This document shows positions 13,986 to 56,238 of a DNA stretch of 64,000 bases, one piece after another. A model generated the notes under the pieces. That model did no database searches, was not told where the DNA came from, and saw only the letters and a list, made by a program, of their open reading frames with translations. The first letter of the stretch is position 1, and every line of letters begins with the position of its first letter. Origin of the DNA: Frankia sp. RB7 (GTDB lineage: Bacteria > Pseudomonadota > Alphaproteobacteria > Rhizobiales > Xanthobacteraceae). The stretch is from positions 1 to 64,000 of the forward strand of contig JAUEPE010000013.1 of the NCBI GenBank assembly GCA_030403585.1. Direction: 5' to 3'. A program made the position numbers and the translations under genes.

Positions 13986-14073
13986 CGTCATGGCCGAGCT
14001 TGACCCGGCCATCTATCAAAATTGATGGGCTTTTGAGCAGCGATGAGTTGCCGGGTCAAGCCCGGCAACGACG
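13986..14073. repeat. palindromic intergenic repeat (GCCGGGTCAAGCCCGGC type)
   Basis: Two hairpins in tandem: ATGGCCGAGCTTGACCCGGCCAT-like (13990-14012) and TTGCCGGGTCAAGCCCGGCAA-like (14048-14068). They are also complementary to each other (CTTGACCCGGC with GCCGGGTCAAG) and are flanked by CGTCAT and ACGACG. It lies between two genes of the same operon direction. Confidence 0.75.
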
Positions 14074-14080
14074 CCTCAAG

Positions 14081-14560
14081 TTACGCGAAATAGGTCAGGC
14101 CGAGCCATTCCGCGACCAGCGCGGGCTTGTCCTCGCCTTCGATCTCCACCGTGACGTTGGTGCGGGTCTGAAATTCGTTCGGCTTGCGCAGCTTGGCCTC
14201 GGCCAGCACGAAACGGCCACGGACGCGCTTGCCTGAGCGCACCGGGGAGATGAAACGCAACTTGTCGAAACCGTAATTGACACCCATCGTCGCGCCCGCG
14301 ATCGCTGGCATCACCTCGTAGGACATGATCGACAGCAGCGACATCGTGAGGAAGCCGTGCGCGATGGTGGTGCCGAAGGCAGTTTCCTTTTTGGCGCGCT
14401 CGGGATCGACATGGATGAACTGGTGGTCCTCGATCACGTCGGCATAGGCGTCGATGCGGGGCTGATCGACCAGATGCCACGACGACACGCCGATCTCGTT
14501 GCCGACCATGGCATGATAGGTCTCCAGCGTGATCGGCGGCTTCTTCCAGACTTCGTTCAC
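14081..14560 (-). CDS. MaoC family (R)-specific enoyl-CoA hydratase
   Basis: Single hot-dog protein of 159 residues that hydrates trans-2-enoyl-CoA to (3R)-hydroxyacyl-CoA. The hydratase motif is DHQFIHVDPERAKKETAFG, with the catalytic Asp/His pair, followed by IAHGFLTMSLL, as in PhaJ-like enzymes. Its ATG abuts the stop of the acyl-CoA synthetase gene (14561), so the two are coupled. It is followed after a palindromic repeat by the SDR that could oxidise its product. Confidence 0.9.
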   Translation of the reverse strand: MNEVWKKPPITLETYHAMVGNEIGVSSWHLVDQPRIDAYADVIEDHQFIHVDPERAKKETAFGTTIAHGFLTMSLLSIMSYEVMPAIAGATMGVNYGFDKLRFISPVRSGKRVRGRFVLAEAKLRKPNEFQTRTNVTVEIEGEDKPALVAEWLGLTYFA

Positions 14561-16276: not shown

Positions 16277-17166
16277 TAAGCTTTCCCGGCGAGATCCCTA
16301 ACGTGCTTGATAATTCCGGAAAAATCCACCCCGCCCTGCCCCGCTCTGTCGAAGGCCTGGTAAATCTCCTGCGCATGCTGGCCGAGCGGCGTCGCGGCGC
16401 CCGCGGCCTTTGCGGCGTCCTGCGCCAGGGTCAGATCCTTCACCATCAGCGCCGAGGCAAAACCCGGCTTGTAGTCGTTGTTCGCCGGCGATGTCGGCAC
16501 CGGGCCCGGAACCGGGCAATAAGTCGTGAGCGACCAGCACTGGCCCGACGAGGTCGAGGCCACATCGAACAGCGCCTGATGCGAGAGGCCGAGCTTCTCA
16601 GCCAACGCAAACGCCTCGCTCACCGCGATCATGGAAATGCCGAGGATCATGTTGTTGCAGATCTTTGCCGCCTGGCCTGCGCCGCTGCCGCCGCAATGCA
16701 CGATCTTCTTGCCCATCTTCTCCAGCACGGGCTTTGCCGCCGCGAACGCGCCCTCCTCGCCACCGCACATGAAGGTGAGCGTGGCGCCCTTGGCGCCGCC
16801 GGTGCCGCCGGACACGGGCGCATCGACCGAGAGCACGCCGTGCTTGGCTGCGAGCGCATGCGCTTGGCGCGCGCTCTCGACGTCAATGGTTGAGCTATCG
16901 ATGATCAGTGCGCCCTTGGCCATGGCGGGAACCACCTCGTTCCAGACGCCCAGCACGTGCTTGCCGGCCGGCAGCATGGTAACGACGACATCGGCACCTT
17001 TCACCGAACTCGCGGCACTCTCCCCGATGCTGGCGCCGTCGGCCTTGGCCTGATTGCGTGACGCCTCGGCGAGATCAAAGGCCACCACCTTGTGGCCGGC
17101 CTTGACCAGATTGGCGGCCATCGGGCCGCCCATGTTGCCGAGACCGATGAATGCGATCGTGGCCAT
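16276..17166 (-). CDS. mmsB: 3-hydroxyisobutyrate dehydrogenase
   Basis: Oxidises 3-hydroxyisobutyrate to methylmalonate semialdehyde with NAD+ in valine catabolism. The 296-residue protein has the Rossmann signature FIGLGNMGGPMAANL, the substrate loop VSGGTGGAKGATLTFM and the catalytic lysine in GAGQAAKICNNM (near residue 170). The usual length is about 295. It sits between the 3-hydroxyisobutyryl-CoA hydrolase that makes its substrate and the acyl-CoA synthetase, in the same direction. Confidence 0.95.
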   Translation of the reverse strand: MATIAFIGLGNMGGPMAANLVKAGHKVVAFDLAEASRNQAKADGASIGESAASSVKGADVVVTMLPAGKHVLGVWNEVVPAMAKGALIIDSSTIDVESARQAHALAAKHGVLSVDAPVSGGTGGAKGATLTFMCGGEEGAFAAAKPVLEKMGKKIVHCGGSGAGQAAKICNNMILGISMIAVSEAFALAEKLGLSHQALFDVASTSSGQCWSLTTYCPVPGPVPTSPANNDYKPGFASALMVKDLTLAQDAAKAAGAATPLGQHAQEIYQAFDRAGQGGVDFSGIIKHVRDLAGKA

Positions 17167-17191
17167 CTTCGTTTCCTCCGCTTGAACGTTG

Positions 17192-18253
17192 TTAGTTGAA
17201 CTTCAATTCGTCGGCGCCGATCTCGGCGAGATAAGGCGCAAGCACGTCCGGCGTCACGTCTTCGATCCGTGGTGGCGACCAGATCGGGTTGCGATCCTTG
17301 TCGATCACGGCGGCGCGCACGCCCTCGCGGAAATCGTCGCTGCGGAAAACCTCCAGCGCGGCGCGATATTCGCGCACCAGACATTCTTCGAGACTCGACG
17401 CGCTGCGCGCCAGCCGCAGCAGCTTCAGCGTCACCACCATGCCCCGCGGCGATTTTTCGTTGAGTGTCTTGAGCGTAGCCAGTGCGAACTCGGAGCCGTC
17501 GCGCTTCAACGCCGCAAAAATGTCTTCCATGCGGTCGAAGCCGAACAGCGCATCGATCATCGGCTGCTTCGCCGCGACAGGACCGGCGGCATCGTCTGTC
17601 GCGAAGCTGTTGATGAGCTTACTGACCTCCGCCGCAGTCGCGTCTGATCGAACCTTCGTCAGCGCTTCGCGCAGCTCCGGCCACTTGGCCGCCGGCACCA
17701 CCGCATCGGCGAATTTCGCATGGATCGCGTCAGGCCCATTCATGGTCTGGCCGGTGAGGCCGAAATAAGTGCCGATCTCACCGGGCGAGCGCGACAATAG
17801 CCAGGTGCCGCCGACATCGGGGAAAAAGCCGAGCCCGACTTCAGGCATCGCCAGCTTGGTGCGATCGGTGACGACACGATGGCTGGCATGGCCGGACAGG
17901 CCGACGCCGCCGCCCATCACCAGCCCATCCATGAACGCGACATAGGGTTTTGGGTACTTCGCGATCCGCGCATTCATGACGTATTCCTGACGCCAGAACC
18001 GCGCGCCGAGATCGCCGCCTTCGCGCGAGTTCTCCCAGAGGCCACGAATGTCGCCGCCGGCGCAGAGCCCGCGTTCGCCGGAGCCTTCGAGCACGATCAC
18101 CGCCACTTCAGGATCGGCTTCGAACCGGTCCAACGCAGCGTCGATGCCTTCCGACATCCCCAGCGTCATGGCGTTGATCGCCTTGGGCCGGTTGAGCCGA
18201 ATTACGCCCGCCGCGCCCTCGCGACGAACGATCAGATCGCCCTCCTCCATCAT
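17192..18253 (-). CDS. 3-hydroxyisobutyryl-CoA hydrolase (crotonase superfamily)
   Basis: Releases 3-hydroxyisobutyrate from its CoA ester, the step that makes the valine pathway irreversible. The 353-residue protein has the crotonase oxyanion loop GLCAGGDIRGLWENS, the second loop GLVMGGGVGLSGHASHR, and PEVGLGFFPDVGGTWLL, all typical of HIBCH rather than enoyl-CoA hydratase. Its length is about 100 residues over plain crotonases, as expected. ATGATG at 18253/18250 overlaps the upstream dehydrogenase stop (TGA at 18252-18250), and GGAGGAGG inside the leader is not needed for this start. Confidence 0.92.
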   Translation of the reverse strand: MMEEGDLIVRREGAAGVIRLNRPKAINAMTLGMSEGIDAALDRFEADPEVAVIVLEGSGERGLCAGGDIRGLWENSREGGDLGARFWRQEYVMNARIAKYPKPYVAFMDGLVMGGGVGLSGHASHRVVTDRTKLAMPEVGLGFFPDVGGTWLLSRSPGEIGTYFGLTGQTMNGPDAIHAKFADAVVPAAKWPELREALTKVRSDATAAEVSKLINSFATDDAAGPVAAKQPMIDALFGFDRMEDIFAALKRDGSEFALATLKTLNEKSPRGMVVTLKLLRLARSASSLEECLVREYRAALEVFRSDDFREGVRAAVIDKDRNPIWSPPRIEDVTPDVLAPYLAEIGADELKFN

Positions 18254-19395
18254 CGCGCGCCCTCGATCAATTTGCGCGCCACGATCAGCCGCATGATTTC
18301 GTTGGTGCCTTCGAGGATCTGGTGCACGCGCAGATCGCGCACGATCTTCTCGATGCCGTACTCGCTGAGATAGCCATAGCCGCCGTGAAGCTGGAGCGCC
18401 TGGTTGGCGACCTCGAAACCGGCATCGGTGCCGAACCGCTTTGCCATCGCACAGAGCATGGTGGCGTCGGGGTCTTTCCGATCCAGCGCCGCCGCTGCGC
18501 GCCACAGGAAAGTGCGCGCGGCCTCGAGCTCGATCGCCATGTCAGCGAGCTTGAATTGCAGCGCCTGGAATTCGTCGAGCCGCTTTCCGAACGCCTTGCG
18601 CTCCTTCATGTAGGCGCGCGCCTTGTCGAGCGCGGTATGCGCGCCGCCGAGTGAGCAAGCCGTGATATTGAGGCGGCCGCCGTCGAGGCCGGCCATCGCG
18701 ATCTTGAAGCCGATGCCCTCCTCGCTGAGCCGGTTGGCCACCGGCACGCGCGCGTTCTCGAAAATGACGGCGCGGGTCGGCTGCGCGTTCCAGCCCATCT
18801 TGCGCTCGTTGGCGCCGTAGGACACGCCCGGCGTCTTGCCGTCGACGACGAGGGTCGAGATGCCGCCGGGACCATCGCCGCCGGTGCGCACCATCGCGAC
18901 CAGCAAATCGGTGCCGCCAGCGCCCGAGATGAACTGCTTCTGTCCGTTGAGCACGTAGTGATCGCCGTCGCGCACCGCGCGGGTGCGCAGCGCTGCCGCA
19001 TCGGAGCCGGCGCCCGGCTCGGTCAGGCAGTAGCTTGCGATCAGCTCCATGGTGCAGAGTTTTGGCAGCCATGTGTGGCGCTGGGTGTCGTTGCCATAGG
19101 CATCGATCATCCAGCTCGCCATGTTGTGGATGGAGATGAAGGCCGAGGTGGTCGGACAGCCCGTCGCCAGCGCCTCGAAAATCAGCGCCGCGTCGAACCG
19201 CGTCATCGCGGAGCCGCCGACATCCTCGCGGATGTAGATGCCACCCATGCCGAGGGTGGCGGCTTCGCGCATGACGTCGACGGGGAAATGCTTTTCCTCG
19301 TCCCAGCGCAGCGCATGCGGCGCGATCTTTTCCGCCGCAAACGCCAACGCCATGTCGCGAACCGCGAGCTGATCTTCGTTCAGAGCGAACTGCAT
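18250..19395 (-). CDS. acyl-CoA dehydrogenase, probably isobutyryl-CoA dehydrogenase
   Basis: FAD flavoenzyme of 381 residues that desaturates a short branched acyl-CoA. It has AYCLTEPGAGSDAAALRT, the FAD-binding FISGAGGTDL block, the C-terminal QLHGGYGYLSEYGIEKIVRD with YGIE, and RDLRVHQILEGTNEIMR, all family signatures. Context (mmsA upstream, 3-hydroxyisobutyryl-CoA hydrolase and mmsB downstream) points to isobutyryl-CoA as substrate. The start at 19395 (MQFALNEDQ) is the family start; the open frame reaches 19446 into a repeat. Confidence 0.92.
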   Translation of the reverse strand: MQFALNEDQLAVRDMALAFAAEKIAPHALRWDEEKHFPVDVMREAATLGMGGIYIREDVGGSAMTRFDAALIFEALATGCPTTSAFISIHNMASWMIDAYGNDTQRHTWLPKLCTMELIASYCLTEPGAGSDAAALRTRAVRDGDHYVLNGQKQFISGAGGTDLLVAMVRTGGDGPGGISTLVVDGKTPGVSYGANERKMGWNAQPTRAVIFENARVPVANRLSEEGIGFKIAMAGLDGGRLNITACSLGGAHTALDKARAYMKERKAFGKRLDEFQALQFKLADMAIELEAARTFLWRAAAALDRKDPDATMLCAMAKRFGTDAGFEVANQALQLHGGYGYLSEYGIEKIVRDLRVHQILEGTNEIMRLIVARKLIEGAR

Positions 19396-19415
19396 GCTGG
19401 GCTCCTCACCTCCCT

Positions 19416-19501
19416 CGTCATTGCGAGGAGCAAGGCGACGAAGCAATCCAGGATGCCTGTGCGGAAAGATTCTGGATTGCTTCGCTGCGCTCGCAATGAC
19501 G
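19416..19501. repeat. palindromic repeat (CGTCATTGCGAG...CTCGCAATGACG)
   Basis: Outer arms CGTCATTGCGAG (19416-19427) and its exact complement (19490-19501). The inner pair is CGAAGCAATCCAG / CTGGATTGCTTCG. It lies between mmsA and the acyl-CoA dehydrogenase gene, so it is transcribed inside an operon. Same family as 35133-35219, 35300-35411 and 56248-56365. Confidence 0.85.
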
Positions 19502-19516
19502 GGCTGGGCAACAGCC

Positions 19517-21013
19517 CTACTTCATCAGCGGGATCGAGAACTCCGCACCTTCCTTGACGCCGGACGGCCAGCGCGAGGTGACCGTCTTGGTCTTGGTGTA
19601 GAAGCGGACCGAGTCCGGGCCGTGCTGGTTGAGATCGCCGAAGCCGGACTTCTTCCAGCCGCCGAAGGTGTAATAGGCGATCGGCACCGGGATCGGCACA
19701 TTGATGCCGACCATGCCGACATTGACCTTGGCTGCGAAGTCGCGCGCGGCATCGCCGTCGCGGGTGAAGATGGCAACACCGTTGCCGTAATCATGCTCGG
19801 ACGGCAGCGCCAGCGCTTCCTTGTAATCGTGCGCGCGCACGACCGAGAGCACCGGGCCGAAGATCTCTTCCTTGTAGATCCGCATGTCCTTGGTGACGTT
19901 GTCGAACAGCGAACCGCCGAGATAGAAGCCCTTCTCGTAGCCCTGCATCTTGAAGCCGCGGCCGTCGACGGCGAGCGTTGCGCCTTCCTTGATACCGATG
20001 TCGATGTAGCCCTTGACCTTCTCGACGGCCTCGCGCGTGACCAGCGGACCGTAATCGGCGGACGGATCGATCGAGGTGCCGATCTTGAGGCTCTCGACGC
20101 GCGGGATCAGCTTTTCCATCAGGTGATCGGCGGTGGACTTGCCGACGGGGACCGCGACCGAGACCGCCATGCAGCGCTCGCCGGCCGAACCGTAGCCGGC
20201 GCCGATCAGCGCGTCGACCGCCTGGTCCATGTCGGCGTCGGGCATGATGATGGCGTGGTTCTTGGCGCCGCCAAAACACTGGCAGCGCTTGCCGGTCTGG
20301 GCGGCGCGCTCGTAGATGTATTGCGCGATCGGCGTGGAGCCGACGAAGCCAACAGCCTTGATATCGGGATCGTCGAGGATGGCGTCGACGGCTTCCTTGT
20401 CGCCATTGACGACGTTGAGGATCCCAGCCGGCAGGCCTGCCTCGATCATCAGTTCGGCGAGCATCATCGGCACGCCGGGATCGCGCTCCGACGGCTTGAG
20501 GATGAAGGCGTTGCCGCAGGCGATCGCGGGCGCGAACTTCCACATCGGGATCATCGCCGGAAAATTGAACGGCGTGATGCCGGCAACGACGCCGAGCGCC
20601 TGGCGCATGGAGTAGATATCGATGCCGGGGCCGGCGCCCTCGGTGTATTCGCCCTTCATCAGGTGCGGGATGCCGCAGGCAAATTCGGCGACCTCGAGGC
20701 CGCGCTGGATGTCGCCCTTGGCGTCGGGCACGGTCTTGCCGTGCTCACGGGCGAGCAGTTCGGCGAGCTTGTCGTAATCGCGCTGCACCAGCTCGACGAA
20801 TTTCATCATGACGCGGGCGCGGCGCTGCGGATTGGTCGCAGCCCATTCCGGCTGCGCGGCGCGGGCGTTCTCCACGGCGGCGCGGACTTCGGCCTTGGAC
20901 GCCAGTGCCACCTTGGCCTGGACGTCGCCGGTCATCGGCTCGAAGACGTCGGCGGTGCGGCCCGAGGTGCCCTTGACCTCCTTGCCACCGATGAAATGTC
21001 CGACTGAACGCAT
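19517..21013 (-). CDS. mmsA: CoA-acylating methylmalonate-semialdehyde dehydrogenase
   Basis: Converts methylmalonate semialdehyde to propionyl-CoA (and malonate semialdehyde to acetyl-CoA) with NAD+ and CoA, the last step of valine and myo-inositol breakdown. The 498-residue length is exactly typical. It has GITPFNFPAMIPMW, VGFVGSTPIAQYIY, and the nucleophilic cysteine in SAGERCMA near residue 285. It lacks the ELGG-type glutamate region of hydrolytic aldehyde dehydrogenases (FGGAKNH is present instead), as expected of CoA-dependent members. AAGGAGATCATTCC precedes the ATG at 21013. It is first gene of the operon and divergent from a LysR gene. Confidence 0.96.
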   Translation of the reverse strand: MRSVGHFIGGKEVKGTSGRTADVFEPMTGDVQAKVALASKAEVRAAVENARAAQPEWAATNPQRRARVMMKFVELVQRDYDKLAELLAREHGKTVPDAKGDIQRGLEVAEFACGIPHLMKGEYTEGAGPGIDIYSMRQALGVVAGITPFNFPAMIPMWKFAPAIACGNAFILKPSERDPGVPMMLAELMIEAGLPAGILNVVNGDKEAVDAILDDPDIKAVGFVGSTPIAQYIYERAAQTGKRCQCFGGAKNHAIIMPDADMDQAVDALIGAGYGSAGERCMAVSVAVPVGKSTADHLMEKLIPRVESLKIGTSIDPSADYGPLVTREAVEKVKGYIDIGIKEGATLAVDGRGFKMQGYEKGFYLGGSLFDNVTKDMRIYKEEIFGPVLSVVRAHDYKEALALPSEHDYGNGVAIFTRDGDAARDFAAKVNVGMVGINVPIPVPIAYYTFGGWKKSGFGDLNQHGPDSVRFYTKTKTVTSRWPSGVKEGAEFSIPLMK

Positions 21014-21042
21014 GGAATGATCTCCTTGAGGCCTGATCCGCT

Positions 21043-21077
21043 TTGACAAATCCTATCGACCTGCATTTTATAGGATT
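21043..21077. promoter_or_regulatory. inverted repeat and TTGACA box between mmsA and the LysR gene
   Basis: AATCCTAT (21049-21056) and its exact complement ATAGGATT (21070-21077) are separated by 13 bases. The spacing and position fit a LysR-type operator in a divergent promoter. On the plus strand TTGACA (21043-21048) and TTTTAT (21066-21071) are 17 bases apart and could be the regulator promoter; this would make the regulator transcript leader short. Operator function is inferred. Confidence 0.5.
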
Positions 21078-38195: not shown

Positions 38196-38340
38196 GCACG
38201 CACCGTTGCAGCTTCTGATCCGCGACAATCTGAAACAGATCATATTGCGATGCTGCGCGGCGTCTTGCGTTCGGGCGTTACGACGAACGCAGGTGCCGGA
38301 CGGGTTGCGCGTGCCCTGATTGCGTTGCACAAGGGAGGCG

Positions 38341-40188
38341 ATGATAGCGCAACCGCCGCCCGCCTCCGCCTGGACCCGCTCGAAGCCGCCGCTGCTGCGG
38401 TTTCTCGACACCTGCCTGAATGAATTCTCCGCGGAGACCTCGGGCCACGTCGCGGATTATATTCCCGAGCTGAGCAAGGCCGACCCTGCCTATTTCGGCA
38501 TCAGCCTCGCGACGCTCGATGGTCATGTCTATGAAGTGGGCGACAGCCGGGTGCCCTTCACCATCCAGTCAATGTCAAAGCCGTTCGTGTTCGCGCTGGC
38601 GCTGGATCTTCTGGGCGCAGGCAAGGTCGAGAGCGCGATCGGCGTCGAGCCGTCGGGCGATCCCTTCAACTCGATCCGGCTCAATGCGGACAACCATCCG
38701 TTCAACCCGATGGTCAATGCCGGCGCGATCGCTTGCACCGGGCTGATCTACGACAGCAAGGGCCCCGAGGCGTTCGAGCAGATCCGCCTGGCGCTCAGTC
38801 GCTTTGCCGGACGAGACCTTGCCGTCGACGAGGCGGTCTACAACTCCGAGAGCCAGACCGGCGACCGCAACCGCGCCATCGGCTATCTGCTCAAGACCAA
38901 TGCGGTGATCTCGGACAATGTCGCAGGCGTGCTCGACGTCTATTTCCGGCAATGCGCCGTGCTGGTGACCGCGCGCGACATCGCGGTGATGGCGGCGACG
39001 CTCGCCAATCGCGGCGTCAATCCGGTCACGGGCGAACAGGTGCTGACGCCTTACGCGATCTCGCGCACGCTGTCGGTGATGACGTCGTCGGGCATGTACG
39101 ATTATGCCGGCGAATGGATCTACCGGATCGGCATCCCCGCCAAGAGCGGCGTCGGCGGCGGCATCCTGGCGGCGCTCCCTGCGCGTCTGGGGCTCGGCAG
39201 CTATTCGCCAAAGCTCGACAAGCACGGCAACAGCGTGCGCGGCATCAAGGTCTGCGAAGCGCTGTCCTCGCATTACGATCTGCACATGCTCAACCGCAGC
39301 GACGACGCCCGCAACGCCGTCATCGCCGACTACGACATCGGCAAGAGCCCGTCGCGCCGCGTCCGCCGCCAGCAGGAGCGCGACATCCTCGCCGCGCATG
39401 AGCAGGAGGTGCGGATCATCGAGCTGGTCGGCACGCTGTCGCTCTCGGCGGTCGACTATGTCTCGCGCCGGCTGGCGGACCGGCCGCGCCCGCAATTCGT
39501 GATTTTCGATCTTCACCGTGTCACCTCCACCACGCGGGCCGGCGCCCGGCTGATCGCGGAGGCCTTCGAGGACCTCGCCGCACTGAATGTGACCGTGGTG
39601 ATCTCCGGCGTCCGCCGCGCCTCCAAGGAGTGGAACACGCTGCGGGAATGGACCGCCGAGCTGAAGAATGTCCGCGACTTCTATCTGCTCGATACCGCGA
39701 TCGAATGGGCCGAAGATCAAATCGTCTACCGCTATGGCGGCTCGATCGATTTTCACGAGACCACCGAACTGTCCGAACAGCCGCTGCTCGACGGCCTCGG
39801 TGCCGAGGAGCTGACCGACCTCGCCTCGATCTGCACGATTCGGACCTATCAGTCCGGTGCAAAGATCCTCACCACAGGCGATCCCGCGGACGCCCTGTTC
39901 TTCCTGCGCAGCGGCGCAGTGCATGTTACGTTGCCTGACGGCGTCAGGCTTGCGACGCTGACTGCCGGCATGGCGTTTGGCGAGATGGCCTTGATCGAGA
40001 CCGCCCGCTCCGCCGACGTGTTCGCGGACATGGCCGCGACCGCGTTCGAAGTGCCGCTCAGGGATTTCGAGCGTTTTCGCAGGCAGCACCCGCGGGCGTC
40101 AGAGCGCATCATGCGCAATCTGGCACAGCTCCTGGCCGATCGGCTGATCGTCGCCAACACCAAGGTCGATATCCTGACTTCGACGTAG
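38341..40188 (+). CDS. glsA: glutaminase A fused to STAS and cyclic-nucleotide-binding domains
   Basis: Hydrolyses glutamine to glutamate and ammonia. Residues 1-310 are the serine-dependent glutaminase fold with S77-x-x-K80 in SMSKPF and VNAGAI plus YNSE downstream. Residues about 355-460 form a STAS-like domain (RIIELVGTLSLSAVDYVSRRL, then VIFDLHRVTSTTRAGARLI). Residues about 485-610 are a cNMP-binding (CRP-like) domain with ILTTGDPADALFFLRSG and GMAFGEMALIETARSADVFA. The protein is twice the usual 310 residues. AAGGGAGGCG before the ATG sets the start. The two added domains suggest allosteric control by a cyclic nucleotide or partner. It is followed by the mazG-like gene on the opposite strand. 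Confidence 0.93.
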   Translation: MIAQPPPASAWTRSKPPLLRFLDTCLNEFSAETSGHVADYIPELSKADPAYFGISLATLDGHVYEVGDSRVPFTIQSMSKPFVFALALDLLGAGKVESAIGVEPSGDPFNSIRLNADNHPFNPMVNAGAIACTGLIYDSKGPEAFEQIRLALSRFAGRDLAVDEAVYNSESQTGDRNRAIGYLLKTNAVISDNVAGVLDVYFRQCAVLVTARDIAVMAATLANRGVNPVTGEQVLTPYAISRTLSVMTSSGMYDYAGEWIYRIGIPAKSGVGGGILAALPARLGLGSYSPKLDKHGNSVRGIKVCEALSSHYDLHMLNRSDDARNAVIADYDIGKSPSRRVRRQQERDILAAHEQEVRIIELVGTLSLSAVDYVSRRLADRPRPQFVIFDLHRVTSTTRAGARLIAEAFEDLAALNVTVVISGVRRASKEWNTLREWTAELKNVRDFYLLDTAIEWAEDQIVYRYGGSIDFHETTELSEQPLLDGLGAEELTDLASICTIRTYQSGAKILTTGDPADALFFLRSGAVHVTLPDGVRLATLTAGMAFGEMALIETARSADVFADMAATAFEVPLRDFERFRRQHPRASERIMRNLAQLLADRLIVANTKVDILTST

Positions 40189-41424: not shown

Positions 41425-41443
41425 GTTCGCGTTTCAGAGTTTT

Positions 41444-41549
41444 CGTCATTCCGGGGTGGCTCTCCCGGGACCGCGCATTGCGCGGCCCTAGCAAGCCAGG
41501 CCCAGAATACCCGTTCCAGGCTCGGTCTCTTGACCGCCCCCGAATGACG
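41444..41549. repeat. palindromic intergenic repeat (CGTCATTCCGGGG family)
   Basis: CGTCATTCCGGGG (41444-41456) and CCCCCGAATGACG (41537-41549) are complementary outer arms. Internal hairpin GACCGCGCATTGCGCGGCC-like at 41470-41488. Related to 2903-3009. It lies between convergent genes and may act as a terminator. Confidence 0.8.
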
Positions 41550-41557
41550 AAATCCCA

Positions 41558-41917
41558 CTACGTCTTCTTCGCAAAGAACGGGACCAGCTTACCGGCAAAC
41601 GGCTTGAAGCCTGCGGTCACCTCGTCGCCAATGGCAAGATCATTCTCGCCATGGGCCATCATGCGAAATCCCTCGGCGCAATCGACCAGCAGGATGTTGT
41701 AGGGCACGTGCGCCCGCGTCTCTGGCGTCGCGGCGCGGCAGACCAGCGAAGTCGCGTAGACCCTGCCCTTGCCGCTGGCGCGCTGCTCGTGGGGATCGGC
41801 GGTTCCACACGCCGCGCAAAAGGCGCGGTGGAAATATTGCACATGGCCGCATGCGGCGCAGGTCTGGTACGTGATGGCCTGCTCGCCCTTGGTCCAGTCC
41901 GCTAAACGCTCGCTCAT
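41558..41917 (-). CDS. Zn-ribbon/OB-fold DUF35 protein
   Basis: The 119-residue protein has an N-terminal rubredoxin-like zinc ribbon CAACG...CAACG (residues about 21-40) and a C-terminal OB fold (VYATSLVCRAATPETRAHVPYNILLVDCAEGFRMMAHG). DUF35 proteins bind thiolase-fold partners; for example the ChsH2 DUF35 domain activates the Ltp2 aldolase in steroid side-chain breakdown. Its start overlaps the stop of the upstream thiolase-fold gene by four bases, which supports a protein complex. The start at 41917 is the codon that gives MSERLADWTKG, the family N-terminus. Confidence 0.87.
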   Translation of the reverse strand: MSERLADWTKGEQAITYQTCAACGHVQYFHRAFCAACGTADPHEQRASGKGRVYATSLVCRAATPETRAHVPYNILLVDCAEGFRMMAHGENDLAIGDEVTAGFKPFAGKLVPFFAKKT

Positions 41918-43050
41918 CGCACCCGCTCCAGAAACATGCTGACGTGGGACGACAGCACGCCGCCGTCGCCGTGCAGCAGCGCAATCGAGGCGTCGCGCAC
42001 TTGTCGATTCGCGGCACGCCCCGTGATCTGCAAATGCGCCTCGACCAGATGCGCCATGGCGCCGCCGACGCCGCAATGGCCGTAGCTGAGCAGGCCACCA
42101 TGGGTGTTGAGCGGCATCGCGCCGTCTCGGCCAAAATGACCGGCGCGTACGCGGGCAGCCGCCTCGCCGCGGCCGGCAAGGCCGAGGTCTTCCAGCAGCA
42201 TCGCGAGCGTGATGGTAAAGCTGTCGTAGATCGCGGCGTAACGCACGTCGGAGATCGCAAGGCCGGTGGCCTCCCTGGCGCGCGCGATGGAGATTTCGGC
42301 GCCGAGTTCACTTAAGCTTGGCGCAGCCGTGACGTGCTGATGGGTATGCGCCTGGGCGCAGCCGCGGATGCGCACGCCGGCCTCGCCGGTTCGCTCGCGG
42401 CTGATGACGAAGGCCGCGCCGCCATCGGACACCGGGCAGCAGTCCAGCAGCTTGAGCGGCATCGCGACCGGCTTCGAGGCCATGACGTCGGCGACCGCAA
42501 TGGGATCGTGGAATTGCGCGCCGGGGTGGGTGCAGGCGTGGGCACGCATCAGCACCGCGAATTCGGCGAGGTCCTCTTCGGTCACGCCGTATTCGTGCAT
42601 GTAGCGCGTGGCGACGAGACCGTAATAGGCGGGGATGGTTGGACCCAACGGCACCTCGTAGTCGGGGTGACCGACCTGCGCCAGCGCCAGGATCGAGGCA
42701 TCGCGGCTCTGCCCGGTGAGGCGGTTCTCGCCGGCGACGACGAGCACGTTGCGGCAGACATCGGCGTCAACGAGCTGATGCGCTAGCATCGTCATCGCGA
42801 GCCCGGTGGCACCGCCGACCTGGACGGCGTGCGCATAGGACGGACGGATGCCAAAATGTTCGGCGAACACGGTCGCCAGCATGATGTGCGGCGAGACGGT
42901 CGAGTAGCCACAGAGAATGCCGTCGATGTCGGCCCGCTTCAGCCCGGCATCGTCGAGCGCGGCTTGCGCCGCCTTGCTCATCAGGTCGAGCGAGGACGAG
43001 CCTTCGTGCTTGCCGTAGGACGTCAGGCCGACGCCGGTGATGAAGCTCAT
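41914..43050 (-). CDS. thiolase-fold protein lacking the nucleophilic cysteine (possible acyl-CoA aldolase)
   Basis: The 378-residue protein has thiolase architecture, with N-terminal MSFITGVGLTSYGKHEG, and the histidine loop NTHGGLLSYGHCGVGGAMAH in place of the GHPxGA of true thiolases. The position of the acylated cysteine is VQVGGATG, so G80 replaces Cys and no thioester chemistry is possible there. Family members of this type are retro-aldolases acting with a DUF35 partner. The DUF35 gene overlaps it by 4 bases and a CaiB-type CoA transferase is 10 bases upstream. Substrate unknown. ATG 43050 begins MSFITG. Confidence 0.85.
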   Translation of the reverse strand: MSFITGVGLTSYGKHEGSSSLDLMSKAAQAALDDAGLKRADIDGILCGYSTVSPHIMLATVFAEHFGIRPSYAHAVQVGGATGLAMTMLAHQLVDADVCRNVLVVAGENRLTGQSRDASILALAQVGHPDYEVPLGPTIPAYYGLVATRYMHEYGVTEEDLAEFAVLMRAHACTHPGAQFHDPIAVADVMASKPVAMPLKLLDCCPVSDGGAAFVISRERTGEAGVRIRGCAQAHTHQHVTAAPSLSELGAEISIARAREATGLAISDVRYAAIYDSFTITLAMLLEDLGLAGRGEAAARVRAGHFGRDGAMPLNTHGGLLSYGHCGVGGAMAHLVEAHLQITGRAANRQVRDASIALLHGDGGVLSSHVSMFLERVR

Positions 43051-43060
43051 GATGCCCTCC

Positions 43061-44260
43061 CTACTCCGGCATCGGGCGCGTGACGCCATCGCGGACCATG
43101 GCGGCGATCTCGTCGGTGGAGTAGCCGATCTCGCGCAAAATCTCCGCGCCGTGCTCGTTGAGGCGTGGCGCGAGCCTGACAGTCTCGGCCTCGGTCTCCG
43201 ACCAGGTCGCCGTGACCTTCATGCTGCGGATCGGGCCTTCGGTCGGGTGATTCACGACCGGGAAGAAGCCTGTCGCCTCCAGATGCTCGTCATGCAGGAT
43301 CGATGCGAGATCGTGCATCGGCATCACGGGCACATCGGCCTTGGTCAGCAGGTCGATCCACTCGGCCGTGGTGCGTGTCTCAAAGATGCGCGCGAGTTCG
43401 GCGTAGACGACGTCGATATTGGCGGCGCGGCCGGCGAAGGTCGCGAACTTCGGATCGGCGCGCAAATCGTCGCGGCCCGTCGCCTTGAAGAAGTTTTCCC
43501 ACTGCTTGTCGTTGTAGACGATGACGCTGAGATAACCGTCCGATGTCTTGTACGGCCTGCGGTCGCGCGAGAGATGGCGGGCATAGCCGCCCTTGTCGAG
43601 CGGCGGCTCATAGGTGAGCCCGCCCATGTGGTCGCCCATGACGAAGCCTGCCATGGTCTCGAACATCGGGATGTCGACGCGCTGGCCGCGGCCGGTGCGG
43701 TCGCGATGCACGAGGCTGGCGCAGATCGCGCCAACGGCGGTGAGGCCGACGATGCGGTCGACCAGCGCGTTCGGCACATAGCGCGGCACGCCATCACCGG
43801 TCTGCGCCATCAAGGCGGGCAGCGCGGTGGCGCCCTGGATCAGATCGTCATAGGCGGGTTTTGCGGCATAGGGTCCGTCCTGGCCGAAGCCGAACACGCC
43901 GGCATAGACCAGGCGCGGATTGATTGCGGAGACGACGTCATAACCAAGCTGAAGCCGCGCCATCGCCTGCGGGCGGACGTTGTAGACGAGAACGTCGGCA
44001 TCCCTGAGCAGCCGCAGCACGGCCTCGCGTCCCTCAGGCTTCTTCAGGTCGAGGCAGATCGAGCGCTTGCTGCGATTGGTGTTGAGGAACACCGGACCCA
44101 TGCCGGTGTGCCGCATCGGGCCGATCAGGCGGGTGACGTCGCCGTCGAGCGATTCCACCTTGATCACGTCGGCGCCATAGTCGCCGAGCATCTGGGTCGC
44201 ATAGGGACCCATCAGCACGGTGGTCATGTCGACGACCTTGATGCCCTTCAGCGGCCCCAT
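43061..44260 (-). CDS. CaiB/BaiF family acyl-CoA:carboxylate CoA-transferase
   Basis: Transfers CoA between acids through an aspartyl-CoA anhydride. The 399-residue protein begins GIKVVDMTTVLMGPYATQMLGDYGADVIKVE and has NRSKRSICLDLKKPEG. The catalytic Asp is in AYDDLIQGATAL (near residue 165). It is typical of class III CoA-transferases. It is the first of three closely spaced genes (CoA transferase, thiolase-fold protein, DUF35), suggesting that it activates the substrate to a CoA ester for the next two. Confidence 0.9.
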   Translation of the reverse strand: MGPLKGIKVVDMTTVLMGPYATQMLGDYGADVIKVESLDGDVTRLIGPMRHTGMGPVFLNTNRSKRSICLDLKKPEGREAVLRLLRDADVLVYNVRPQAMARLQLGYDVVSAINPRLVYAGVFGFGQDGPYAAKPAYDDLIQGATALPALMAQTGDGVPRYVPNALVDRIVGLTAVGAICASLVHRDRTGRGQRVDIPMFETMAGFVMGDHMGGLTYEPPLDKGGYARHLSRDRRPYKTSDGYLSVIVYNDKQWENFFKATGRDDLRADPKFATFAGRAANIDVVYAELARIFETRTTAEWIDLLTKADVPVMPMHDLASILHDEHLEATGFFPVVNHPTEGPIRSMKVTATWSETEAETVRLAPRLNEHGAEILREIGYSTDEIAAMVRDGVTRPMPE

Positions 44261-44700: not shown

Positions 44701-45870
44701 CTACTTCAGCGGCTCCAGGACGGAGACGTAGTTGGCAACGGCGGCGCCGCCCATGTTGAAGATGCCGCCGAGCTTTGCGTTCTTGAGCTGCATACCCTCG
44801 GGCGCCTGGCCGGCGAGCTGCATCGCGGTCATCACATGCATGGAGACGCCGGTGGCGCCGATCGGATGGCCCTTGGCCTTCAACCCGCCGGACGGATTGA
44901 CCGGCAGCTTGCCGTCCTTGAGCGTCCAGCCCTCCTTGATGGCGCGGGCGCCCTGCCCCTTCGGCGTCAGGCCCATCGCTTCGTACTCGATCAGCTCGGC
45001 GACGGTGAAGCAATCATGGGTCTCGACGAAGGAGAGATCGGACAGCGTCACGCCCGCCTGCTCCAGCGCGCGCTGCCAGGCGACGGTGCAGCCCTCGAAC
45101 TGAAGGATGTCGCGCTTGGACATCGGCAGGAAGTCCTGCGCGTGCGCGGTGGCGCGGAAGCCGATCGACTTGCCCATGCCCTTGGCGGTCTCGGGATCGG
45201 CCAGCACCAGCGCGGCCGCGCCGTCGGAGACCAGCGAGCAGTCGGTGCGCTTCAGGGGACCCGCGACATACGGGTTCTTCTCGCTCTCGGCGCGGCAGAA
45301 GTCGAAGCCAAAATCCTTGCGCATCTGGGCGAAGGGATTGGCAACGCCGTTCTTGTGGTTCTTGGCCGCGATCAGCGCCAGCGCATCGGACTGGTCGCCG
45401 TATTTCTGGAAATAGGAGCTGGCGATCTTGCCGAACACGCCGGCGAAGCCGCCGACGGTGTCGCCGTCCTCAGGCAGATAGGACGCCTTCAACAGGTTCT
45501 TGCCGATCTCGGCGCTCGGCGTGCGCGTCATCTGCTCGACGCCGACGACCAGCACGATTTTGGCGGCACCTGCGGCAATCGCACGCACGCCCTGGTGCAC
45601 CGCGGCCGATCCCGTGGCGCAGGCGTTCTCGACGCGGGTCGTCGGCTTGAAGCGCAACTTCGGATCGGCCTGGAGCACCAGCGAGGCGGTAAAATCCTGT
45701 GGCGAGAAGCCGGCGTTGAAATGGCCGAGCACGATTTCGTCGACGTCGGAGGCCGAGATGCCGGCATCGGCCATCGCCTCGTTGGCGACGCGGGTGACGA
45801 GGCTCTCGACGGTTTCGGTGTCGAACTTGCCGAACGGCGTATGCGCCCATCCGACGATGCTGGCGGTCAT
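44701..45870 (-). CDS. acetyl-CoA acetyltransferase family thiolase (SCP-x-like)
   Basis: The 389-residue thiolase has the nucleophilic cysteine C84 in VENACATGSAA. Other elements are PSGGLKAKGHPIGATGVS with the active-site histidine, and GGIFNMGGAAVANYVS at the C-terminus instead of the biosynthetic CxGGG loop. This pattern fits degradative/SCP-x-type enzymes. ATG 45870 gives MTASIVGWAHTPFGK. It stands alone with its own terminator; its substrate is a 3-ketoacyl-CoA of unknown kind. Confidence 0.9.
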   Translation of the reverse strand: MTASIVGWAHTPFGKFDTETVESLVTRVANEAMADAGISASDVDEIVLGHFNAGFSPQDFTASLVLQADPKLRFKPTTRVENACATGSAAVHQGVRAIAAGAAKIVLVVGVEQMTRTPSAEIGKNLLKASYLPEDGDTVGGFAGVFGKIASSYFQKYGDQSDALALIAAKNHKNGVANPFAQMRKDFGFDFCRAESEKNPYVAGPLKRTDCSLVSDGAAALVLADPETAKGMGKSIGFRATAHAQDFLPMSKRDILQFEGCTVAWQRALEQAGVTLSDLSFVETHDCFTVAELIEYEAMGLTPKGQGARAIKEGWTLKDGKLPVNPSGGLKAKGHPIGATGVSMHVMTAMQLAGQAPEGMQLKNAKLGGIFNMGGAAVANYVSVLEPLK

Positions 45871-50545: not shown

Positions 50546-51859
50546 TCAGACCTGATAGTAACGCTTGGCGCGCTCGGCGGCACGCGCCGCAGCTTCCTTC
50601 GGCGTGGCCTGTCCGGCGGCGGCTTCCGCGAACATGTCGACCACGACGAAGTCGCCCATGACGGCGGCCGAGGCGTAGCCGAGATCGCCGGCGTAGCCGT
50701 TGTCACGGCAGCGCTTCAGACAGTCGCGATACGGTGTGATCTTGGGATCCGAGGTCCAGACCGGGTTGTCGTTGTAGGCCGGGAGCGGCGGCGAGACATA
50801 GCCGTTGGAGGCGACTTCCCACGCGTCGTAATTCTCCTTGTCCATCATGAACTTGATGTATTCCTTGACCGCCTTCGGATACTTCGAATGCTTGTAGCCG
50901 TAGTAGACCAGGACGTTCTGCTGCTCTGTCGACACGCCCACGGGCCCGATCGGCATCTGCGCGTGGTTCATGTCCTTGGCGATCTCCTGCTGCTTGGGAT
51001 CAGTGGAGTTCTTGCCGACGGTCCAGATCGAGATGCCGTTCAGGGTCAGACTGAGTTCGCCGTTCAGGAACGCCTTGTTGTTGTTCGAGTCGTTCCACGA
51101 CAGCACGCCCGGAATGAACGTCGCATAGAGCTGCTTGACGTATTCGATCGCGGCGATCGTCTCCGGCGAGTCGATCACGACCTCGTTCTTGTCGTTGACG
51201 ACCTTGCCGCCGAACGCCCACAGCGCCCACTGGCACCAGCCGTTGGCATCGCCCGTGGCATGGCCGAGCGCGAAGCCGGCCGGCGTGTTGTTCTTCTTCA
51301 GCGCCTGGCACAGCTTGAGGAAGCCGTCGGTGTCCTTGGGGAATTCCTCGAAGCCCGCGGCCTTCATGTGGCTGATGCGGTAATTCAGACAGCCGCCGGT
51401 CGCGCCCTGGGGAATGGCGATCCAGTTGTTGCCCTTCTTGCCGTAGCGCTCGGCAACCGGATACCAGCCGCCATACTGCTTGCCGAGATAGTCGGCGACG
51501 TCGGTCACGTCGATCAGCTTCTCGGGGAATTTGAAGGGATCGTCGAGCGTGCCGACGATGAGATCGGGGCCTGCGCCGACGTTGGCAGCGACCGCGGCCT
51601 TCGGCCGGATGTCCTCCCAGCTCTCGGCCTCGAGCTTCACCTTGATGCCGGTCTTCTCGGTGAACTTCTTGGTCTGCTCGGCGAACTTGTCGAACTCGGC
51701 CTGGATGAACTGCTTCCAGCGCAGCACGCGGATGGAGGCATTCGGCTCCGGCGTGTTGGTCCACTCTGCGGCACGCACCGGGACGATACCCGGGCCAGCG
51801 AGCAAAGCTGCGCCGCCCAGGCTGGCTTTAAGCACACTACGCCTGTCGAAATGGCTCAT
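50546..51859 (-). CDS. sugar ABC transporter substrate-binding protein
   Basis: Periplasmic binding protein of 437 residues. N-terminal signal MSHFDRRSVLKASLGGAALL has a twin-arginine-like RR and ends at about VRA-A (residue 31). The mature protein has ASIRVLRWKQFIQAEFDKF, the type I/CUT1 binding-protein fold, with WNDSNNNKAFLNGELSLTLNG. It feeds the two permeases downstream. Ligand unresolved; the enzyme genes suggest a sugar or sugar acid. Confidence 0.93.
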   Translation of the reverse strand: MSHFDRRSVLKASLGGAALLAGPGIVPVRAAEWTNTPEPNASIRVLRWKQFIQAEFDKFAEQTKKFTEKTGIKVKLEAESWEDIRPKAAVAANVGAGPDLIVGTLDDPFKFPEKLIDVTDVADYLGKQYGGWYPVAERYGKKGNNWIAIPQGATGGCLNYRISHMKAAGFEEFPKDTDGFLKLCQALKKNNTPAGFALGHATGDANGWCQWALWAFGGKVVNDKNEVVIDSPETIAAIEYVKQLYATFIPGVLSWNDSNNNKAFLNGELSLTLNGISIWTVGKNSTDPKQQEIAKDMNHAQMPIGPVGVSTEQQNVLVYYGYKHSKYPKAVKEYIKFMMDKENYDAWEVASNGYVSPPLPAYNDNPVWTSDPKITPYRDCLKRCRDNGYAGDLGYASAAVMGDFVVVDMFAEAAAGQATPKEAAARAAERAKRYYQV

Positions 51860-51916
51860 CGTTCTCTCCCTGAATTTTATATTTTGTATTTGGTAGTCCT
51901 ACGTCACGAAACGCCG

Positions 51917-52978
<1,062 letters not shown>

Positions 52979-53127
52979 CTAGCTCCCTCCTCCGACTTAG
53001 ACGACGCAACTGTGGCGCCGCCACCGTCTTGTTTTTTCTGAACTTCGCCGACCCGAAGCCCCTCTTAACAGGCGACATTGTCGGCAGTTTCTGCGGCTTT
53101 GGCAATTTGTCTTTGGTTAGTCTTTGC

Positions 53128-53141
53128 TGGTAGCGCTGTCA
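53128..53141. promoter_or_regulatory. LacI-type operator O1 in the divergent promoter
   Basis: TGGTAGCGCTGTCA is symmetric in the TG, AGCGCT and CA positions. It lies 43 bases upstream of the lacI-type start and 150 bases upstream of the ABC ATPase start. It matches the two sites near 54.26 kb (TGRTARCGYTAYCA-like). Confidence 0.6.
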
Positions 53142-53183
53142 ACGATCCTTTGTTTGCGGGAGTGGCTGTGTTAAGAGCGATAA

Positions 53184-54281
53184 ATGGGTCGAAAGCGCAC
53201 CAAGTCTGGCAAGATTCGGCTGGCGGAAGTCGCCGAACTCGCCGGCGTCAGCCCGATTACCGCCTCCCGTTTCTTCCGCAATCCCGAGGCGCTGTCGGTC
53301 GCCAAGCGGACGCGGGTCGAAAGCGCGGCTCGCGAGCTCGGCTATGTGCCTAACCTTGCGGCACGGGCGCTGGCCTCGCAGCGCACCGAGGTGATCGGTG
53401 TCTTGATTCCGTCACTGACCAACAACGTGTTCTCAGACGTGCTGCGCGGCATCTATGACGCCTCCGAAAGCAGCCGTTACTCGATCCAGTTGTCCAACAC
53501 ACGCTACTCCATTCTCCAGGAGGAGAAGCTGTTGCGCCTGTTTCTGGCGCAGAAGCCGGCGGGACTGATCGTCACAGGCATCGACCAGACCACGGAATCG
53601 CGCGCGATGCTGGAGGCGGCCGACTGCCCGATCGTGCAGATCATGGAGATCGGGCCCAATCCTGTCGACATGATGATCGGCTTTTCCCATTTTGAAGCAG
53701 CGCGGGCGGCGATTGCTCATTTGTTCGCGCAGGGCCACCGCAGGATCGGCTTCGTCGGCGCACGCATGGACCCGCGGGTGCAGCGCCGGCTCGACGGCTA
53801 TGTCGCGGCCATGAAGGACGCCGGCCTGTTCGACCAAAGACTGATCGTGACCACGGCGACGCCGACCTCGGTGACGCTCGGCGGCGCACTTTTCGCCGAC
53901 CTGCTCGCGCGCGAGCCCGGCATCGACTCGGTGTTCTGCGCCAATGACGACCTTGCGCTCGGCGTTCTCTTCGAATGCCGGCGCCGGGACATCGCAATCC
54001 CAGAGCAGATCGCGATCGTCGGCTTCAACGACCTCGAATTCATGGCCTCCTCGGTGCCGACGCTGACGAGCGTGCGGACCAACCGTTATGAGATGGGCAG
54101 CACTGCTGCCGCGATGCTGATCGAGGCGATCGAAGGCAAGCGTCCCGAAGAGCCCGTGCTCGATCTCGGCTTCATGGTGATCGAGCGGCAGAGTTCGCAG
54201 ATGCAGCGGCCGGTAGCCAGCCCACGCGCGCCGGAATGGGCGCCAGCCGTACAAAATGATAGCGTTACCAACGACCCATGA
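53184..54281 (+). CDS. LacI family transcriptional regulator
   Basis: Repressor of 365 residues. Helix-turn-helix with hinge helix is at the N-terminus (RLAEVAELAGVSPITASRFFRNPEALS), followed by ARALASQRTEVIGVLIPSL and a periplasmic-binding-protein-like effector domain with a C-terminal tail beyond the usual 340. It is positioned between the transport operon and the dehydratase genes, each with matching sites, so it likely regulates both. The operator at 54257-54270 lies inside its own 3' end. Confidence 0.93.
   Translation: MGRKRTKSGKIRLAEVAELAGVSPITASRFFRNPEALSVAKRTRVESAARELGYVPNLAARALASQRTEVIGVLIPSLTNNVFSDVLRGIYDASESSRYSIQLSNTRYSILQEEKLLRLFLAQKPAGLIVTGIDQTTESRAMLEAADCPIVQIMEIGPNPVDMMIGFSHFEAARAAIAHLFAQGHRRIGFVGARMDPRVQRRLDGYVAAMKDAGLFDQRLIVTTATPTSVTLGGALFADLLAREPGIDSVFCANDDLALGVLFECRRRDIAIPEQIAIVGFNDLEFMASSVPTLTSVRTNRYEMGSTAAAMLIEAIEGKRPEEPVLDLGFMVIERQSSQMQRPVASPRAPEWAPAVQNDSVTNDP
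54257..54270. promoter_or_regulatory. LacI-type operator O2 upstream of the dehydratase gene
   Basis: TGATAGCGTTACCA matches its own complement at 10 of 14 positions and the symmetric pattern of O1. It lies in the last codons of the lacI gene, 139 bases before the dehydratase start. Confidence 0.6.
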
Positions 54282-54282
54282 T

Positions 54283-54296
54283 TAGTATCGCTACGA
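54283..54296. promoter_or_regulatory. weaker LacI-type site O3
   Basis: TAGTATCGCTACGA retains TA-CG-TA symmetry of O2, with centre 26 bases away. Spacing could allow cooperative binding; sequence is more degenerate. Confidence 0.35.
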
Positions 54297-54408
54297 TGAG
54301 GAAACGTTCGCCAGCAGACGGGTCGTTGTTACATGCTCGCGCTGCCGGGCATCGCACCGATCGGCATCCCGGATGTCGGCCCGCGCGTTTGCATTGAAGG
54401 AGAAACCA

Positions 54409-56238
54409 ATGACAAAAAAGCCAACCAATGGGCATGCGCCCGCCGGTAACGGCACCCGCCGCCACCTTCGCTCGCAGGAATGGTTCAACAACCCGCACAA
54501 TCCGGGGATGACCGCGCTGTATCTGGAGCGCTATTTGAATTTCGGCCTGACCCGCGCCGAGCTGCAGTCCGGCAAGCCGATCATCGGCATTGCGCAAACC
54601 GGCAACGACCTCTCCCCCTGCAACCGGCATCATATCGAGCTGGCCCATCGTGTCCGCGAAGGCATCCGCGAGGCCGGCGGCATTGCGATGGAATTCCCGA
54701 CCCACCCGATCCAGGAAACCGGCAAGCGTCCGACCGCGGCGCTCGACCGAAACCTCGCTTATCTCGGCCTGGTCGAAATCCTCTACGGCTATCCGCTCGA
54801 CGGCGTGGTGCTGACCACCGGCTGCGACAAGACCACGCCCGCCTGCATGATGGCGGCCGCGACCGTCAACCTGCCCGCAATCGTGCTGTCGGGCGGACCG
54901 ATGCTCAATGGCTGGCACAATGGCGAGCGTACCGGCTCCGGCACCATCGTCTGGAAGTCGCGCGAGCGGCTCGCTGCGGGCGAGATCGACTATGAAGAGT
55001 TCATGGAGATCGTGGCGTCCTCGGCGCCCTCGGTCGGCCATTGCAACACCATGGGCACGGCATCAACCATGAACGGGCTTGCCGAAGCGCTCGGCTTCTC
55101 GCTGCCGGGCTGCGCGGCCATCCCCGCCCCCTATCGCGAGCGCGGCCAGATCGCCTACGAGACCGGAAAACGCGCCGTCGAGATGGTCTGGGAAGACCTC
55201 AAGCCGTCGGACATCCTGACCCGCAAGGCGTTCGAGAACTGCATCGTGATCAATTCGGCGATCGGCGGCTCGACCAACGCGCCGATCCACATCAACGCGC
55301 TGGCCCGCCATATCGGCGTGGAGCTGTCGATCGACGACTGGCAGAAATTCGGCCACGACGTACCGCTGCTGGTGAACATGCAGCCAGCCGGCTTCTATCT
55401 CGGCGAGGAATTCCACCGCGCCGGCGGCGTGCCAGCGGTGGTGCGCGAATTGATGAAGCACAAGCGCATCCATGAGGACGCGGTCACGGTGAACGGCCGC
55501 GGCATCGGCGAGAACTGCAAGGATGCGCCCGCGCCCGACAACGACGTGATCCGGGCCTACGACAAACCGCTGGTGAAGGACGCCGGCTTCCTGGTGCTGA
55601 AGGGCAATCTGTTCGATTCCGCGATCATGAAGACCTCTGTGATCTCCAAGGAATTCCGCGACCGTTACCTGAGCAACCCGAAAGACCTCAACGCCTTCGA
55701 GGGCCGCGCCATCGTGTTCGAGGGCCCGGAGGATTATCACGCGCGGATCGACGACGCCTCGCTCGACATCGACGAGCGCTGCGTGCTGTTCATCCGCGGC
55801 ACCGGCCCGATCGGCTACCCCGGCGGCGCCGAGGTCGTGAACATGCAGCCGCCGGCTGCCCTGATCAAACGCGGCATCCACTCCCTGCCCTGCATCGGCG
55901 ACGGCCGCCAGTCCGGCACCTCGGGCTCGCCGTCGATCCTCAATGCCTCGCCGGAAGCGGCCGCCAATGGCGGGCTCGCGATCCTCAAGACCGGCGACAA
56001 GGTGCGCGTCGACCTCAACAAGGGCAGCGCCAACATCCTGATCTCGGACGACGAGGTGAAGAAGCGCCACGCCGAGCTGAAGGCCAGTGGCGGCTTCAAG
56101 CATCCGCCGAATCAGACGCCGTGGCAGGAGATCTATCGCAACACCGTCGGCCAGCAATCGACCGGCGCCTGCATGGAGCTCGCCACGCGCTACCAGAACG
56201 TCGCCGGCACCTTTGGTGTGGCGCGGGATAATCACTAG
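54409..56238 (+). CDS. IlvD/Edd family sugar-acid dehydratase (L-arabinonate/D-xylonate dehydratase-like)
   Basis: Dehydrates a sugar acid to a 2-keto-3-deoxy sugar acid. The 609-residue protein has iron-sulfur cysteines C71 (SPCN), C139 (TTGCDK) and C212 (VGHCN), spacing 68 and 73, the same spacing reported for [2Fe-2S] L-arabinonate dehydratase of Rhizobium (C59/C127/C200). The catalytic serine lies in [24 protein letters not shown] before the ATG is a strong ribosome site. Sequence cannot distinguish arabinonate, galactonate or xylonate. It is regulated with the transporter by the LacI protein (inference). Confidence 0.9.

Follow-up and report, generated by a model that had tools for sequence, protein, structure and literature searches.

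Some thiolase-fold proteins that have no nucleophilic cysteine and that pair with a DUF35 protein are aldolases. In TcLtp2-ChsH2 (Protein Data Bank (PDB) entry 6ok1), a C3 steroid side-chain aldolase, Tyr294 is the base, Tyr344 the acid and His296 belongs to the oxyanion hole, and in CtSal-CtShy (9myr), a C5 bile-acid side-chain aldolase, Tyr302 is the base, Cys304 the acid and Gln352 a further catalytic residue, a C304S variant being inactive (PMC12329534). Cleavage of non-steroid substrates by such a pair is also already known, from the ibuprofenyl-coenzyme A (CoA) dihydrodiol retro-aldolase IpfD/IpfE of pIBU218, which releases propionyl-CoA and 4-isobutylcatechol by retro-aldol cleavage (PMC9195938). 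Here we describe a related locus in a stretch of 64,000 nucleotides (hereafter the window) of contig JAUEPE010000013.1 of Frankia sp. RB7, a soil bacterium of the Bradyrhizobium type placed by GTDB in the Xanthobacteraceae. It encodes a cysteine-less thiolase-like protein, a DUF35 protein and a CaiB-type CoA-transferase, and we think it probable that the first two form a predicted beta-hydroxyacyl-CoA retro-aldolase for a non-steroid acid, with a variant of the active site seen in Ltp2 and Sal.

All three genes lie on the reverse strand. The thiolase-like protein, a candidate acyl-CoA aldolase of 378 amino acids (41914-43050), is read from an ATG at 43050 to 41914, and the DUF35 gene (41558-41917, 119 amino acids) begins with an ATG at 41917, so that the two share four bases (ATGA). 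The CoA-transferase gene (43061-44260, 399 amino acids) ends at 43061, ten bases upstream of the thiolase-like gene. In Pfam the thiolase-like protein matches Thiolase_N (PF00108) weakly and Thiolase_C_1 (PF22691) strongly; none of the curated NCBIfam families fits it, the best being PRK06158 with 288 bits against a cut-off of 421, and public annotations call such proteins "thiolase" or "acetyl-CoA acetyltransferase". The DUF35 protein consists of a zinc ribbon and an oligonucleotide/oligosaccharide-binding (OB) fold (zf-ChsH2 and OB_ChsH2_C), matches the DUF35 chains of the solved aldolases, and has a four-cysteine ribbon (C20-x2-C23-x10-C34-x2-C37) like that of ChsH2 and not the C3H1 site of Shy. 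The CoA-transferase matches CoA_transf_3 with 373.6 bits, and its Asp168 aligns with the conserved aspartate of 4ed9 and of the formyl-CoA transferase 10uh; with this fold and catalytic residue it is, judged by its sequence, a class III (CaiB/BaiF) enzyme.

The motif VQVGGATG of the thiolase-like protein begins at residue 76, which gives Gly80 (codon 42811-42813) in the column of the nucleophilic cysteine of 6esq and of Cys84 in an ordinary SCP2-type thiolase (NF005704, with HDCF and GHP motifs) encoded nearby on the same strand (44701-45870) and belonging to the same ancestral operon. The other catalytic cysteine, that of HDCF, is replaced by Ser277 (codon 42220-42222) of a YDSF motif, and the former CxG loop reads HGDGG. 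Having neither the nucleophilic nor the second catalytic cysteine, the protein falls outside the canonical and SCP2 thiolases as far as its residues tell. Tyr275 of YDSF (codon 42226-42228) stands at the catalytic base, TcLtp2 Tyr294 or CtSal Tyr302 (PMC12329534), Ser277 at CtSal Cys304 and TcLtp2 His296, and His325 (codon 42076-42078) at the TcLtp2 general acid Tyr344, CtSal Gln352 and the histidine of the thiolase GHP motif. These columns were taken from a MAFFT alignment that reproduced the published Ltp2 numbers exactly and those of Sal after a constant offset of 24 residues, and in it Gly80, Tyr275, Ser277 and His325 fall in the published catalytic columns.

A preliminary description of this DNA had already placed a glycine at the cysteine position and given the spacing of the three genes; residue numbering, alignment and open reading frame (ORF) coordinates agree with it on both counts. 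The alignment check that it proposed finds the active-site tyrosine and aspartate retained (Tyr275 and Asp276) and no other cysteine in place of the nucleophile. Its analogy with Ltp2 holds for the glycine, the tyrosine base and the DUF35 partner but not for the acid and oxyanion residues; these differ from the residues of Ltp2 as well as of Sal, and the mechanism of Ltp2 is therefore not simply transferable. The acid of neither enzyme is kept and, since Ser277 stands in the Cys304 column and C304S is dead in CtSal, Sal chemistry would be unusable as it stands. As a working hypothesis for the acid we put His325 first and Asp362 or His360 second; the loop with Asp362 stands roughly where thiolases have their CxG loop.

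The best PDB matches are 4u4e (7e-56), CtSal (9myr, 9e-45) and TcLtp2 (6ok1, 8e-41), and among solved enzymes with a known function the two aldolases are nearest in sequence. With TcLtp2-ChsH2 the pair shares the fold, the glycine, the tyrosine base of the YDxF motif, which reads YDHF in Ltp2, and a DUF35 ribbon of identical cysteine spacing; it differs in having Ser277 for His296 and His325 for Tyr344, and its DUF35 protein stands alone, whereas that of Ltp2 is fused to the hydratase subunit ChsH2. With CtSal-CtShy it shares the fold, the glycine (Gly89/Gly80), the tyrosine (Tyr302/Tyr275) and a DUF35 partner, but it has Ser277 for Cys304, His325 for Gln352 and the C4 zinc site. IpfD/IpfE is likewise a cysteine-less thiolase with DUF35 that keeps the glycine and the tyrosine and acts on a non-steroid acyl-CoA; IpfD, however, is 29% identical to our protein, has an Ltp2-like pair of tyrosines (the second being Tyr342) and Ala294, and works in a ring-dioxygenase pathway. 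A second thiolase-DUF35 pair with Ltp2-like tyrosines lies on pIBU218 (50938-54556; locus L188, 939-4557) apart from ipfDE, adjoining an enoyl-CoA hydratase and a CaiB transferase. The entry 4u4e, named only "Thiolase", has the same pattern of glycine, YDSF and histidine but belongs to a different clade, with YDAF proteins, and has threonine for Asp362. The benzoylsuccinyl-CoA thiolase BbsAB and the transferase BbsEF act in one pathway. Like our locus they combine a thiolase-DUF35 pair with a CaiB-type transferase (7pxp, 9fn0), and an identification as BbsAB was rejected, the scores being 112.8 and 19.8 bits against NCBIfam equivalog cut-offs of 750 and 250. With its thiolase fold, glycine, YDxF tyrosine and DUF35 partner, the pair is by its sequence features a candidate member of the cysteine-less thiolase-DUF35 acyl-CoA aldolases in the broad sense.

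The search for relatives covered more than 1,100 genomes as well as plasmids. Every cysteine-less relative collected has glycine at the nucleophile column, and among them three main motif patterns are found: YDSF/GH (the pattern of our protein), YDCF with AH or AQ, and YDAF/HP. In a tree of 81 proteins the cysteine-less rows split from the cysteine thiolases with support of 100/100, and our protein falls in a clade of 39 rows, all YDSF, with the same support (100/99 in a second, smaller tree), from Alpha- and Betaproteobacteria and one actinobacterial plasmid. Invariant across these 39 sequences are Gly80, Tyr143, Asp276, Phe278, His325, His360 and Asp362, as is Cys204; Tyr275 is too, although as a motif residue it was selected, the table having been picked by YDSF, so that only residues outside the motif count as independent (its 40 rows contain our protein twice). 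Of 59 other Bradyrhizobium genomes sampled, 55 have an orthologue of 87-96% identity. No internal stops were found across 80 Bradyrhizobium orthologues; for the thiolase-like gene the ratio of nonsynonymous to synonymous substitution rates (dN/dS) is 0.07, for DUF35 0.11. Gly80 is neither a sequencing error nor chance, because all cysteine-less relatives have it, stops are absent and dN/dS is 0.07. Three further cysteine-less thiolase-like genes of the same genome (L198, L199 and L200) adjoin genes of the zinc-ribbon OB-fold type; their motifs are YDDY, YDAF and YDSF, and the YDDY protein groups with CtSal on a long branch.

The two genes also travel together. DUF35 adjoins the thiolase-like gene in 80 of 80 Bradyrhizobium loci searched by tblastn and in nearly all distant YDSF loci (a regular-expression scan, whose length filter missed 12 loci, eight of them covered by tblastn and four by annotation, was left out of the counting). 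Three Bradyrhizobium genomes (G032, G048 and G1028) lack both here and keep the remaining operon genes; in G032, for instance, thiolase, AMP-ligase, CaiB, dehydrogenase and ADP-synthetase follow in this order and the pair is cleanly missing (the locus of a fourth genome, G051, ends at a contig edge and was left out of this count). The pair is lost as a unit, which is good evidence that the two proteins work together, and by analogy with their homologues they would form a complex.

We infer the retro-aldol direction, the acid residue and the non-steroid class of substrate, and the following route is proposed. The thiolase-like and DUF35 proteins would form one enzyme, probably an alpha-beta-beta-alpha complex. 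A carboxylic acid would first be activated as its CoA thioester, either through CaiB, with another CoA ester as donor, or through a ligase. Oxidation by an acyl-CoA dehydrogenase would give the enoyl-CoA, to which a hydratase encoded elsewhere would then add water. The complex would cut the resulting beta-hydroxyacyl-CoA into a carbonyl compound and a shorter acyl-CoA (acetyl- or propionyl-CoA), Tyr275 taking the proton of the beta-hydroxyl and His325 helping to hold and protonate the enolate in place of Ltp2 Tyr344 or Sal Cys304. Asp362 and His360, both invariant and both in the former CxG loop, could also take part in handling the enolate.

In related genera the operon consists of the cysteine thiolase, an AMP-forming acyl-CoA ligase, CaiB, an acyl-CoA dehydrogenase, the thiolase-like gene, DUF35 and an ADP-forming acyl-CoA synthetase, and the SCP2-type thiolase is upstream in 71 of 71 full-length Bradyrhizobium loci. 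The operon in the window is shortened, with only the cysteine thiolase, CaiB and the pair left. An orthologue of the dehydrogenase (84%) lies elsewhere in this genome (L197, 7058-15328; G000:C114, about 86-94 kb), next to a tripartite ATP-independent periplasmic (TRAP) transporter, a second CaiB (62% identical to that of the window), a MaoC hydratase and a CitE-type lyase; the cluster also has a Cat1-like CoA-transferase, and its hydratase resembles RipB/Ich and its lyase RipC, both below cut-off. Each of 11 pair-bearing genomes checked has one close dehydrogenase copy (82-96%), in the operon or elsewhere, the second site being this TRAP/CaiB/MaoC/CitE cluster where inspected; one genome (G994) has an extra, more distant copy (60%). 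The linkage of dehydrogenase and pair proved imperfect, 4 of 21 pair-less genomes also carrying a copy (79-86%), and the association is only suggestive. The CoA-transferase had earlier been proposed to load the substrate. It probably works in the same route, but it is not specific to the thiolase-like enzyme: it travels with the dehydrogenase, the CaiB-dehydrogenase unit persists in pair-less Bradyrhizobium and in one genome (G840) lies itself within a MaoC/CitE-lyase cluster, and the ancestral operon has two acyl-CoA ligases. The idea of a partner dedicated to the pair was therefore rejected.

The neighbours of relatives include acyl-CoA dehydrogenases, CaiB proteins, IclR regulators and uptake systems of the TRAP, tripartite tricarboxylate and branched-chain ATP-binding cassette types. 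Of 27 YDSF loci, 15 have the ADP-forming synthetase close to the pair, among them those of Methylobacterium, Comamonas, Roseovarius and the actinobacterium Cnuibacter. The fullest set, in Roseovarius indicus, comprises an AMP ligase, two enoyl-CoA hydratases, the pair, two MaoC hydratases, the ADP synthetase, a TRAP transporter and a dehydrogenase (60% identical to that of the operon), which is what a route of dehydrogenation, hydration and retro-aldol cleavage needs. Two MaoC hydratases directly follow the pair on Roseovarius and Azospirillum plasmids, and the annotation of those stretches lists no 3-hydroxyacyl-CoA dehydrogenase, a gene content that suits aldol better than thiolytic cleavage. 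Judging from the transporters of relatives and from the CitE/MaoC cluster with which the dehydrogenase is shared, the substrate may be a small acid, possibly branched or dicarboxylic. A possible hint comes from two YDSF loci (L179, 6323-7678; L180, 5566-6939) near an "acyclic terpene utilization AtuA family" gene and tripartite tricarboxylate transporter genes. We found no described function for the thiolase-DUF35-CaiB or ADP-ligase arrangement in the open-licence literature.

Other readings of the pair have to be weighed against retro-aldol cleavage. The GHP histidine of thiolases stabilises acyl-CoA enolates, and His325 occupies its position; aldol reactions are also reversible, and the pair could join a ketone or aldehyde to a short acyl-CoA by aldol condensation, or break a different C-C bond by decarboxylating a malonyl-type CoA. 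A protozoan SLP homologue does weakly decarboxylate malonyl-CoA, but CtSal does not (PMC12329534), and with catabolic neighbours such as those just listed we hold this reading to be unlikely. Acyl transfer through another nucleophile, or jointly with the ordinary thiolase of the same operon, has Cys326 beside His325 and the invariant Cys204 (in the pair Cys204/205) to recommend it. Cys326, however, varies, being serine or proline in 12 clade members, which makes a hidden cysteine nucleophile unlikely; Cys204 lies in an LLDCC loop that the aldolase Ltp2 also has, and Gly80 and Ser277 remove both cysteines of SCP2 thiolases, so that we give acyl transfer a low probability. Lower still is that of a non-catalytic scaffold or a module for binding or channelling acyl-CoA, for which the scaffold role of DUF35 in the archaeal thiolase/HMG-CoA synthase complex and in PhlABC would be a precedent (PMC12329534); the invariant polar residues at active-site positions (Tyr143, Tyr275, His325, His360 and Asp362) argue for catalysis.

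A steroid side-chain aldolase in the strict sense of Ltp2 or Sal is very improbable in spite of the common fold, tyrosine base and DUF35 partner. The protein has neither Cys304 and Gln352 of Sal nor His296 and Tyr344 of Ltp2, its C4 DUF35 partner is not fused to a MaoC hydratase, no steroid genes were recognised among the scanned ORFs of the window, and a search of the genome for KshA_C was negative, although control genomes gave one hit only, below the cut-off. The lack of a KshA_C match makes a non-steroid substrate likely, as the preliminary description had supposed. Against a retro-aldolase stand several points. Ser277 is found where CtSal needs Cys304, so that a different acid is required. 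When the query clade was held together with the steroid aldolases the approximately unbiased (AU) test did not reject the grouping (p = 0.148), and the tree is compatible with a place of the clade either beside them or apart from them. The Bradyrhizobium operon has no hydratase gene. Its ancestral form includes an ordinary thiolase through which the pathway could run by thiolysis, leaving the thiolase-like protein another function. Finally, an AlphaFold model built with 46 homologues reached a pLDDT of 48 and a pTM of 0.46 and was not used, so that the active-site geometry is read from the alignment.

Several other features lie in the window. A separate acyl-CoA cluster 20-30 kb away (13044-21049) has a short-chain dehydrogenase/reductase, a MaoC hydratase, an AMP ligase and an acyl-CoA dehydrogenase, with ORFs resembling, by eye, dehydrogenases of the hydroxyisobutyrate and semialdehyde types, and it could supply the hydratase. 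Downstream of DUF35, before the next gene, 131 bases (41430-41560, reverse strand) fold into a strong hairpin (-73.5 kcal/mol, z = -7.3, inverted arms of 19 bases) at the site of the ADP-forming acyl-CoA synthetase gene in related genera; a search of the genome at E<=1e-5 found no second copy, and Rfam gave no match. One ORF (38320-40188) joins glutaminase, STAS and cyclic-nucleotide-binding domains in an uncommon-looking three-part protein.

For a protein with neither catalytic cysteine, the annotation "thiolase" is very unlikely to be right. A more tentative proposal, which we place slightly below an even chance, concerns the whole YDSF clade: it would be a widespread group of DUF35-dependent acyl-CoA aldolases that act on ordinary environmental acids, in proteobacteria and in some actinobacteria, through a third kind of active site (a tyrosine base with a histidine and perhaps Asp362). 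If it is true, the lyase family would extend beyond the steroid aldolases, which would be specialised members of it. Many catabolic clusters would then have been misread, and their route, which would need no 3-hydroxyacyl-CoA dehydrogenase, would release an acyl-CoA together with an aldehyde or ketone. The genes for the ADP-forming acyl-CoA synthetase and the acyl-CoA dehydrogenase, as conserved neighbours, are a concrete set from which to look for the substrate, and the new residue pattern offers a clear mutational test of how a thiolase fold changes into an aldolase.

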